Positions 2,651 through 29,235 of a stretch of DNA of 30,822 nucleotides are shown in pieces. The translations under genes were made by a program, and so were the position numbers. This stretch comes from a virus: positions 1-30,822 of IMG/VR virus record IMGVR_UViG_3300025154_000310. One strand, 5' to 3'. The notes below the pieces were generated by a model that saw nothing but the letters and a program-made list of their open reading frames with translations, did no database searches and was not told the DNA's origin. The stretch's first letter is position 1, and each line of letters begins with the position of its first letter.

Positions 2651-2839
2651 CTAATATTTTTTCCACATTACCTTTGACGCGAATGGACTTTTATAGAGCA
2701 GTCTTTTCTTTGGTGATTTTCGTTTATGTCTAACATCACTTAGAAATGACGTTTTGTTACTTTGTCCTAATTTTTCCAGCCGCCCACTCCTGTACATGGT
2801 TCTGCTATATCGTTTACCCTCAAGCGCGGGCTTAATTAA
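2651..2839 (-). CDS. Basic 62-residue reading frame, likely -1 frameshift extension of the upstream acidic protein
   Basis: This frame is the -1 frame of the acidic gene that ends at 2836. It stays open across that gene's stop and ends at TAG 2653-2651. The peptide starts LIKPALEGKR and ends KVMWKKY. It has 19 Lys/Arg and 3 Asp/Glu in 62 residues, opposite in charge to the preceding protein. An internal ATG (2797-2795) would give a 48-residue standalone protein, but I see no Shine-Dalgarno within reach of it. That is one reason to prefer frameshifting (see the slippery site entry). The coding character is supported by the length of the open frame, the extreme composition and the head-gene context; function is unknown. 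A DNA-contacting tail on a core protein is a guess. It could also be a separate small gene translated by reinitiation after the TAA. Confidence 0.5.
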   Translation of the reverse strand, partial: LIKPALEGKRYSRTMYRSGRLEKLGQSNKTSFLSDVRHKRKSPKKRLLYKSPFASKVMWKKY

Positions 2840-3852
2840 AAACCCACGTTTTCCTCATACTCTTGAACCGCGACCTGAATTGCATCAAACAACTTGTTAC
2901 GTCGCTCAGTCTTATCCAGCTCGTCACTTTCTGTAAGTGAATCAGACACATTGGCAAGATCAATAAGCTTGTTGGCCACTCGCTCTTCACCAATATAGTT
3001 GTACCGAACAGCCATCAATTCAGCGATATCTCCGATAAGCTCAAACGATTCATCCAAATCATCGTCATTGTCATTAATGTCTTCAGGTTCGTCATTGTCT
3101 GTCAGGAATGAATCAATCTCAGAAACAAGTCGTCGCGACTCAGAAAGGCTCTTACTATTATGTTTGCGCATTTTACTCTCTCCATAATTTTCGTATTCAT
3201 TAGACACTATATTGCTTGTGTCACCAATGTCACTGTTAAAACTATCATATTCAGAATCTGACTCTTCGTCAGACAAAACTTCAACCGTGATGTCGTATAT
3301 GTCAGCAGCCTCATCTTCTGAAACTCCATACTTATCAACTATATATCCAATAATATCGTCGTCTGTGGCTGTCTCATCATCATATATATCCAGATACATT
3401 TCATCATCAACCAAATCACTAGCAGCCGATTCCAACGGATCCATACCAGAATCATCTTCCTCAAAATACTCATCATCAAGGCCGAAATCCATGTTAGTTG
3501 GTTCGGTGTCAAGGGAATCAATCTCGGTATCCACGAATGAATCCATGTTTCCATCTTCACCGCATGAACCACAACTCATATAGTCTGTCATGCCACGCAT
3601 CATATCTTGCATGCCAGTATTTTGTCTGTTCATACCATCCATTCCCATTTCATTCATTCCAAGTACAGGAATGAATGAAATGGAAGCACCGTTGAAAGAA
3701 CCGCCATTGAAAGAACCTAGTCCCTGAACTGGCGCTATAAAGCTTTCACTCATCAAACCAGCCATTCGAACCATTCTGTTGGTATCTGCACCAAGATTCT
3801 GTAGTTCCATTAATGGATTTTTGTTGTCACTTAATAATACGTTAGAAACCAT
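2836..3852 (-). CDS. Acidic head-region protein, candidate prohead core protein
   Basis: 338 residues from ATG 3852, chosen because AGGTGG lies 5 bases before it; a GTG three codons earlier lacks such a site. No family recognised. The first 100 residues are rich in Met, Gly, Asn and Ser (MNEMGMDGMNRQ and similar). From about residue 105 the protein is extremely acidic, with runs of Asp and Glu. The last 100 residues are predicted helical. The position between the portal and protease genes is where T4 encodes core proteins gp67 and gp68, and an acidic core component fits. That role is inferred from place and composition only. The gene ends in a slippery sequence that may add a basic tail. Confidence 0.75.
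   Translation of the reverse strand: MVSNVLLSDNKNPLMELQNLGADTNRMVRMAGLMSESFIAPVQGLGSFNGGSFNGASISFIPVLGMNEMGMDGMNRQNTGMQDMMRGMTDYMSCGSCGEDGNMDSFVDTEIDSLDTEPTNMDFGLDDEYFEEDDSGMDPLESAASDLVDDEMYLDIYDDETATDDDIIGYIVDKYGVSEDEAADIYDITVEVLSDEESDSEYDSFNSDIGDTSNIVSNEYENYGESKMRKHNSKSLSESRRLVSEIDSFLTDNDEPEDINDNDDDLDESFELIGDIAELMAVRYNYIGEERVANKLIDLANVSDSLTESDELDKTERRNKLFDAIQVAVQEYEENVGF
2839..2845 (-). other. Slippery heptamer GGGTTTT beside a stop codon
   Basis: On the coding strand the acidic gene ends GTG GGT TTT TAA. The heptamer G-GGT-TTT fits the X-XXY-YYZ rule for -1 ribosomal frameshifting, with both tRNAs able to re-pair one base back. A GAGG lies 7 bases upstream, and a 4-bp stem AAGC/GCTT with loop CCGC starts 5 bases downstream. 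This resembles a weak version of the dnaX layout. Frameshifting here would replace the stop by the basic 62-residue extension. Use of the site is inferred. Confidence 0.5.
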
Positions 3853-16097: not shown

Positions 16098-16712
16098 TCA
16101 CGCTCCAATCAATTCATATTTAGCTGTCACCCGAACAACAAGATCGGGCATCCCAATACGATCTACTAATCCATGATTCATTGCTTCTTGTGCGGTCAAA
16201 TACATATCAGCGTGACCACGTTCATGAATTATATGTTTAAAATAGTCTTTGTCATGCCCACAATTTATGGACACCTGCTCCATTAACCTCTTGTTTACAC
16301 CATCCACGAAACTTGCAGTTGATTGCAGCTCGTTATTTTTACCCCATTCTCCAGCGGAAACTTCATGCATCAAAAAGTAACTATTGGGTGCTGCGAAACG
16401 ATATCCTTTTGTGCCGAAACTAACCAAAACCGCACCACACGAAGCCGCACGTCCAACACCAACCGTTGCGACTATCAAGCCAGAACTTGACAATATGTCA
16501 ACCATCGCATACAGGTTTGCCACCATGCCTCCGGGTGAGTTGATGACAACTGGTAGGATTGTTTGTCCAGACTGTCTTGCACGTGAACAACAATCTGATA
16601 AGTTCTTTATTGTCTTGTCGTCAAAATCATTCACGTATGCGGTCACTGGCTGATCCACAAAATCGAAAATGTTCTTAACTCTTATGTTTTCTAGTACCGC
16701 GTAACTGTTCAT
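16098..16712 (-). CDS. clpP: ClpP-like serine protease
   Basis: 204 residues, near the usual ClpP length. The catalytic triad is in place: S91 in GRAASCGAVL, H116 in FLMHEVS, and D169 in GHADMYLTAQEA; the oxyanion Gly pair is in INSPGGMV (61-62). Following the Asp, AQEAMNHGLVDRIG is the standard ClpP end motif. No propeptide is obvious. ClpP forms a 14-mer barrel and needs a Clp ATPase; none is seen here, so it could use a host partner or act alone as in some phage head-maturation enzymes. This copy is far from the head genes, which have their own gp21-type protease. ATG 16712 overlaps the preceding stop (ATGA). Confidence 0.9.
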   Translation of the reverse strand: MNSYAVLENIRVKNIFDFVDQPVTAYVNDFDDKTIKNLSDCCSRARQSGQTILPVVINSPGGMVANLYAMVDILSSSGLIVATVGVGRAASCGAVLVSFGTKGYRFAAPNSYFLMHEVSAGEWGKNNELQSTASFVDGVNKRLMEQVSINCGHDKDYFKHIIHERGHADMYLTAQEAMNHGLVDRIGMPDLVVRVTAKYELIGA

Positions 16713-16951
16713 AGTTTCTCCATATATCTGATAACATCCGCCATCAGCTCGTCAATAGTCATACCATCACTATAAGGATACTCTACAACCTGTATTCTTA
16801 CGCTATCTTGGAACGATAAATCACTACACGGGGTTAATTCTCCCCAATATTGCGACAATATAGCAAGTCTCACCGCATTTAACAGTTTGTCGTTCTTGTA
16901 TGCTTCACATAATAGCACATAACGTTGACCATCAATCGTTACTTCATGCAT
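16709..16951 (-). CDS. Unknown small protein
   Basis: 80 residues. ATG 16951 has AGGAGG five bases upstream, which decides the start over an earlier codon. The sequence begins MHEVTIDGQRYVLLCEA and has a beta-rich first third and helical end. No family recognised. It overlaps the ClpP-like gene by four bases (ATGA), so the two are co-translated, and it follows the nuclease gene after 11 bases. Confidence 0.7.
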   Translation of the reverse strand: MHEVTIDGQRYVLLCEAYKNDKLLNAVRLAILSQYWGELTPCSDLSFQDSVRIQVVEYPYSDGMTIDELMADVIRYMEKL

Positions 16952-16962
16952 AAATCCTCCTT

Positions 16963-26784: not shown

Positions 26785-27038
26785 TCGTCTCCTTCCATAT
26801 TTCTATATTGGCAAGAATAACCTGATGGTGTTTGTGTAGCGATTGCCTGAATTTTGTTCCACTCATCAATCGTCAATTCCGCGATACAATGAAATGAATC
26901 ACCTTCGCGCCAGACTTTCTTAATCACTATATCGCCTGGTTTGTTGATCATGCTCTCATATGCAATCAATAGCATATCTGGATCGAAAAATTGATATCGT
27001 GACTCATATGGCGCAGCGTTATACTGTTTTGTCATCAT
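26781..27038 (-). CDS. Short protein, possibly a truncated relative of the next two
   Basis: 85 residues. Overlaps the 187-residue gene by four bases (ATGA). It has YQFFDPDMLLIAYESM, like the helix before the GQL block, then DIVIKKVWREGDSFHCIAEL, which lines up with HIVREVHWDDDTLSVCCEAL of the neighbour; the region between and the C-terminal strand are missing. This similarity is weaker than that between the two larger proteins. A near copy (12 of 14) of the repeated 14-mer lies at 26961-26974. Confidence 0.6.
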   Translation of the reverse strand: MMTKQYNAAPYESRYQFFDPDMLLIAYESMINKPGDIVIKKVWREGDSFHCIAELTIDEWNKIQAIATQTPSGYSCQYRNMEGDE

Positions 27039-27066
27039 TAGTTCGCCTACGTGTTTGGTTTTAAAG

Positions 27067-27097
27067 TCTGTATCAACAAGTCAAATATTGATACAGA
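27067..27097. promoter_or_regulatory. Perfect 10-bp inverted repeat
   Basis: TCTGTATCAA (27067-27076) and TTGATACAGA (27088-27097) with an 11-base centre, in the 66-base gap between two genes. The stem is A/T-rich and no clear U-run follows on the coding strand, so an operator for a dimeric protein is more likely than an intrinsic terminator. No strong promoter can be seen beside it, although TTTGACTTG lies in the centre on the coding strand. Confidence 0.5.
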
Positions 27098-27104
27098 ATA
27101 GTTA

Positions 27105-28745: not shown

Positions 28746-28969
28746 TTCTTACACCTACACACTATAGTGACATAGTGTTTAAATTGTGACATTACTTCAA
28801 GCTCTTGGTCTGCGCGGCAAGTATAGTCAGTTGTTACCAACACAGTATCTTGGCATGGACAATCAAGGTCATTAATGTAACCCGAACACCCATCACCAGT
28901 TTCGATTGAAGGCCCACAACCTATCATCAACACAGCTAATAATAAAAGAGATAATTTCACGGTCACCAT
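28742..28969 (-). CDS. Small Cys-rich lipoprotein
   Basis: 75 residues from ATG 28969, or 72 from GTG 28960, which has GGAAG about nine bases upstream and gives a cleaner signal peptide (KLSLLLLAVLMIGC). The signal ends in a lipobox-like MIG-C, so the mature N-terminal Cys would be lipidated and the protein anchored in a membrane. The rest has six more Cys (DGCSG, DCPCQD, TCRAD, VCRCKK), suggesting disulphide bonds in the periplasm. A role in superinfection exclusion or lysis is possible, but nothing is specific. It overlaps the preceding gene by 7 bases. Confidence 0.7.
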   Translation of the reverse strand: MVTVKLSLLLLAVLMIGCGPSIETGDGCSGYINDLDCPCQDTVLVTTDYTCRADQELEVMSQFKHYVTIVCRCKK

Positions 28970-29169
28970 CTTCCATTCAATTGTTTATTATTTTCATCAT
29001 AAACCAAGCGAAACATCAACCCGCCGCATTTACGTTCTTGCAATGGCACACACCAACAACATGGTGTGTTTATTTCCAGTTCATCCCAGCTGACGCGATG
29101 ACATGCGAGACATTGTGATACAGGATAGCCTGGAATGTCAAGACAGTAACCCCATTTTGTTTTTACCAT
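28963..29169 (-). CDS. Small Cys-rich, probably zinc-binding protein
   Basis: 68 residues with seven Cys: C9, C20, C23 (CLACH), C37, C38, C40 (CCWC) and C48. CxxC pairs suggest a zinc ribbon or rubredoxin-like knuckle. There is no signal peptide. Ribosome site weak (CGGACAC). It is the first gene behind the promoter at 29199-29226, and its stop overlaps the lipoprotein start. Confidence 0.65.
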   Translation of the reverse strand: MVKTKWGYCLDIPGYPVSQCLACHRVSWDELEINTPCCWCVPLQERKCGGLMFRLVYDENNKQLNGRW

Positions 29170-29198
29170 AGAGTGTCCGTTGTTGAGTTAATGATAAC

Positions 29199-29226
29199 AC
29201 GATAACACGACATTCTGTTATGGCAA
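29199..29226 (-). promoter_or_regulatory. Promoter of the small-gene operon
   Basis: Coding strand TTGCCA (29226-29221), 16 bases, TATCGT (29204-29199), with TGT directly before the -10 and TTTCTTGCCA at the -35. It lies in the 66-base gap after the methyltransferase gene. A second GTGTTATC follows within 10 bases, a tandem duplicate of the -10 region. Confidence 0.6.
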
Positions 29227-29235
29227 GAAAAATGA

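Follow-up and report, generated by a model that had tools for sequence, protein, structure and literature searches.

The head gene block of this virus raises the question of how, if at all, a 62-codon open frame is translated that overlaps the end of a strongly acidic gene in the -1 phase and fills the gap before the prohead protease gene. The window analysed here is a virus contig of 30,822 bases, with nearly all genes on the minus strand, and the head cluster it carries is T4-like and new (Table 1). Since the T4 gene order is 20-67-68-21-22-23, the acidic gene, the 284-aa gene before it and the gap behind it together occupy the 67/68 slot. A preliminary description of this DNA had placed the acidic gene where prohead-core genes lie, and this position is borne out: a gp20-like portal gene stands on one side and an S77 protease gene on the other, with a gp23-like capsid protein gene beyond. 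We regard the product as a putative prohead (scaffolding core) protein.

Table 1 Coordinates of the head genes and of the candidate signals around the end of the acidic gene
Feature	Position	Strand	Details
Small-terminase candidate	11766-11110	minus	
Large terminase with intein	11070-7702	minus	
gp20-like portal with intein	7674-4819	minus	PF07230 E 1.1e-52; PF14890 E 6.8e-17
284-aa protein	4757-3903	minus	between portal and acidic gene
Acidic gene, putative prohead-core protein	3861-2836 as listed	minus	between 284-aa gene and S77 protease
GAGG, Shine-Dalgarno-like	2856-2853	minus	7 nt before heptamer; duplex -6.3 kcal/mol
Slippery heptamer G_GGT_TTT (GGGTTTT)	2845-2839	minus	in acidic-gene frame, directly before TAA 2838-2836
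-1 frame extension, 62 codons + TAG	2839-2651	minus	TTA 2839 to TAT 2654, TAG 2653-2651
Rival start ATT in TAATT	2838-2834	minus	overlaps acidic-gene stop; in tail frame
Predicted downstream stem	2831-2782	minus	outer helix GCCCGC/GUGGGC; 7 nt after heptamer
Rival start CTG 2779	2791-2777	minus	in frame; AGGAG 2791-2787 seven nt before; -7.0 kcal/mol
Gap between acidic gene and S77 protease gene			198 bp
S77 prohead protease	2637-493	minus	714 aa; PF03420 E 2.8e-19, residues 35-170; phrog_207 E 3.9e-44
gp23-like capsid protein, start only	466-1	minus	PF07068 E 1.5e-13

Only distant relatives of the head genes were found, with identities of about 30-34% for the portal and up to 45%, 38% and 32% for the protease, capsid protein and terminase, respectively. 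These proteins and the acidic gene served as queries in the contig scans; the acidic gene, its -1 frame tail and the 284-aa protein had no relative in the searches of IMG/VR contigs, genome contigs and the phage collection (tblastn), from which records closest to the window may have been excluded. The head module is a mosaic, the portal, protease and capsid protein being T4-like and the terminase siphophage-like, closest to those of Vibrio LV6, Stenotrophomonas DLP3 and Rhodobacter RcTiptonus (30-32%). The terminase intein is inserted just before the SLGFGKST P-loop and contains a LAGLIDADG domain, and the portal intein has an HNH-like domain. Unlike T4 genes 21 and 22, the S77 protease ORF continues as a single ORF into a C-terminal scaffold-like region of ~500 aa. 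It contains 30 [IL]xE motifs against 16 expected and the 284-aa protein 11 against 5, an excess that fits processing by a protease of the gp21 type. A family search with the 284-aa protein gave no significant match, and comparison with the ~285-aa gene located behind the portal gene of other T4-like phages showed no similarity, so homology to it was rejected. Outside the head block lies a ClpP-like protease gene (16098-16712, PF00574 E 6.2e-25).

As listed from GTG 3861, the acidic gene has 341 codons and encodes a protein of pI 4.05 with 19 Lys/Arg and 86 Asp/Glu residues. Its true start is probably ATG 3852 (338 aa), which is served by the ribosome site AAGGTGG (-7.8 kcal/mol). A 16-bp perfect inverted repeat with a 7-nt loop lies within the gene at 3645-3683. 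On the minus strand the gene ends GAG TAT GAG GAA AAC GTG GGT TTT TAA, followed by TTAAGCCCGCGC. The -1 frame that runs on from here is the only open frame in the gap before the protease gene, and its stop falls 13 nt before the protease start codon, just before the protease ribosome site. The tail it would encode has a pI of 10.96, and a protein made by joining the two frames would carry a net charge of -67 in the body and +16 in the tail.

Around this junction most of what the preliminary description had claimed was recovered. The last two sense codons of the acidic gene complete, in frame, the X_XXY_YYZ slippery site G_GGT_TTT; GAGG is present seven bases upstream of it; the 62-codon -1 frame has the same 19 Lys/Arg and 3 acidic residues; and the internal ATG said to have no ribosome site, ATG 2797, scores -0.4 kcal/mol, most window genes having sites of -5 to -9 kcal/mol. 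The small stem-loop claimed five bases downstream fared less well: a stem is predicted, but it starts 7 nt away and is ordinary against shuffles (-16.2 kcal/mol, z -0.83; 32 of 200 shuffles were equally stable). For a fold of 116 nt, z is as low as -1.75. As for the GAGG duplex, its strength is equalled by 8% of random 25-mers inside genes.

Heptamers of the form X_XXY_YYZ (Y = A/T) occur in frame at 0.34% of codons in the window (32 in about 9,450), and the overlap between the acidic gene and the -1 frame, whose last upstream stop lies 19 nt before the TAA, measures 19 nt, giving a chance of about 2% for a heptamer within it. As comparable overlaps we took the ten cases in the window where a gene end is followed by a -1 continuation of 25 or more codons; across these, about 0.3 chance heptamers are expected, and one was observed, that of the acidic gene alone. 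The most efficient heptamers in E. coli include V_VV.A_AA.R and H_HH.U_UU.Y; in those of the U_UU.Y type that work efficiently X is U, C or A rather than G, and bacterial ribosomes favour cognate P-site re-pairing if Z = U (PMC4066793), both of which tell against G_GGU_UUU. It falls outside the top E. coli class. It does fit the R_RR.U_UU.Y exceptions, which contain the shifty UUY codon and are shiftier than expected (PMC4066793). In mammalian systems G_GGU_UUU is among the best heptamers (PMC5009743).

Whether the tail is coding at all is a separate matter, and one on which the evidence is divided. By our judgement it is very probably coding, and a 62-codon open frame arose in just 29 of 4,000 dinucleotide shuffles (0.7%). 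The choice of synonymous codons, on the other hand, is poorer than in any of the 372 in-frame 62-codon stretches of window genes and resembles that of wrong frames, and when 32 genes and six small or partial ORFs were scored for coding, the tail came lowest, at -0.022. Low scores are also seen in short basic genes of T4, yet above the tail (5.3, 0.101; alt.-2, 0.128), and T4 gp68 has a normal coding score with its basic tail included. Comparison of the tail with Pfam, PHROGs, NCBIfam, PDB and phage sequences gave no match, and Rfam and tRNA scans gave nothing useful. Two candidate identities were rejected: there was no similarity to the small basic ORFs that precede the protease in other T4-like loci, and the idea of a phage ribosomal protein bS21, which came from a bS21 gene near the protease of Microcystis phage Mel-JY01, found no Pfam support.

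We consider -1 frameshifting on G_GGU_UUU the best single explanation for the tail and give it a probability of roughly 0.4, a figure that, like the gradings of its rivals, is judged and not computed. In its favour are the in-phase heptamer, the lack of a normal start for the tail, the way the tail fills the gap, charges like those of gp68, and the precedent of frameshift-extended head proteins in other phages; against it stand the non-gene-like codons of the tail, a heptamer outside the top E. coli class, the ordinary 3' structure, the lack of detectable homology to gp68 and the want of any relative of acidic gene or tail in the collections searched. Somewhat unlikely, yet the strongest of the rivals, is a separate small gene for the basic protein, translationally coupled to the acidic gene and starting at ATT, by short-range reinitiation at ATG 2797 or at CTG 2779, the heptamer then being a coincidence that costs about 2%. 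A -1 relation is also seen between neighbouring genes in seven further pairs of the window, so this relation needs no frameshift and by itself is no evidence for one. T4 genes 67 and 68 provide a precedent in their coupling via TAATG, where the window has TAATT, and several T4-like loci have a small basic ORF with its own start just before the protease, although those proteins show no homology to the tail. The available starts are awkward: ATT and CTG, neither of which figured in the preliminary description, are rare start codons, even if the ribosome site of the CTG is good; ATG 2797, the sole nearby in-frame ATG, has no such site; and up to codon 58 of the -1 frame no ATG, GTG or TTG is preceded by a ribosome site.

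It is also possible, if improbable, that acidic gene and tail are one ORF, as in gp68, in which a run of T has lost one of its letters through sequencing or assembly error or recent mutation. The frame breaks exactly within a homopolymer (GGGTTTTTAA, five T), and six T would unite the two frames into a protein with the gp68-like charge layout. The odd codon usage of the tail would be left unexplained, and no other gene in the 30.8-kb window has a broken frame, which argues for a low error rate. Least probable of all, in our view, is that the 198-bp gap is noncoding, perhaps regulatory, with the -1 frame open by chance. The wrong-frame codon usage and the want of any family, structure or homology match would suit this, as would the strong hairpin AACGTCATT-TCTA-AGTGATGTT (2753-2732), which in RNA reads AACGUCAUU-UCUA-AGUGAUGUU and lies inside the -1 ORF. 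The rarity of so long an open frame among shuffles speaks against it, as does the end of the frame right before the protease ribosome site; promoter and terminator scans gave no excess, and three other long gaps in the window carry small ORFs that start with ATG or GTG. These encode 80 aa, preceded by AAGGAGG, in gap 16713-16962; 85 aa in gap 26785-27104; and 68 and 74 aa in gap 28746-29235, the 74-aa product being lipoprotein-like.

If frameshifting does occur, most ribosomes would stop at the acidic-gene TAA, while a minority would slip back one base on G_GGU_UUU, aided by pairing of GAGG with 16S rRNA and perhaps also by the downstream stem, and would append the 62-residue basic tail to the acidic protein. 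The core would then hold the short form together with a minor, long-tailed form of the same protein, whose tail would attach to DNA or to the acidic core, a role that the basic C-terminus of gp68 may also have. Tentatively, and a little less firmly than slippage itself, we propose that a gp68-like tail of a T4-type core protein has here been made conditional by -1 frameshifting, the ribosome setting the ratio of tailed to untailed protein. How proteins are placed in the scaffolding core of T4-type phages is not understood, and the structure of the core is unresolved (PMC9958956); if true, dosing the basic tail of a core protein by frameshifting would be a simple and testable control of core composition.

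The closest parallel is T4 gp68, a prohead core protein (phrog_1049) whose gene, like the acidic gene, stands next upstream of the S77 protease gene, in an order of portal, core genes, protease and gp23 common to T4 and the head block of the window. T4 gp67 and gp68 are small core proteins of opposite charge, as the acidic gene product and the tail would be. In seven T4-like phages the body of gp68 has a net charge of -6 to -17 and its last 62 residues one of +19 to +27, and for the window to show this layout of acidic body and basic C-terminal ~62 residues, the -1 frame has to be joined to the acidic ORF. Given this parallel in charge, it is credible that acidic gene and tail belong together functionally, be it through a frameshift or because a T was lost. 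In other respects the two differ, gp68 being a single ORF of about 140 aa with its own start, whereas in the window the acidic protein has 341 aa and the -1 frame encodes the basic part. The window protein gave no match to phrog_1049, hhalign comparisons with gp68 gave P 0.35 and 0.86, and profile Smith-Waterman scores of the joined protein against gp68 lay within those of shuffles; with none of these comparisons giving similarity, the tail was rejected as a gp68 homologue. The likeness to gp68 is one of analogy.

Among known frameshift signals, those of dnaX and IS911 are similarly built, with a heptamer, an upstream Shine-Dalgarno-like element and a stem 5-8 nt downstream (PMC4066793), although dnaX uses A_AAA_AAG where the window has G_GGU_UUU, outside the top E. 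coli class, and the stem in the window is no better than shuffles. C-terminal extensions made by -1 frameshifting are known for T7/T3 gene 10 and the coat protein of Listeria phages A118 and A500 (PMC5009743). There, as proposed here, a slip near the end of the gene gives an extended head protein. The T7/T3 and Listeria heptamers differ from that of the window; moreover, those cases concern coat proteins and several have been shown by experiment, whereas the window offers a putative core protein with a proposed extension. Since the examples named here are coat proteins, a core protein extended by programmed -1 frameshifting would, if true, widen the range of frameshift-extended head proteins.
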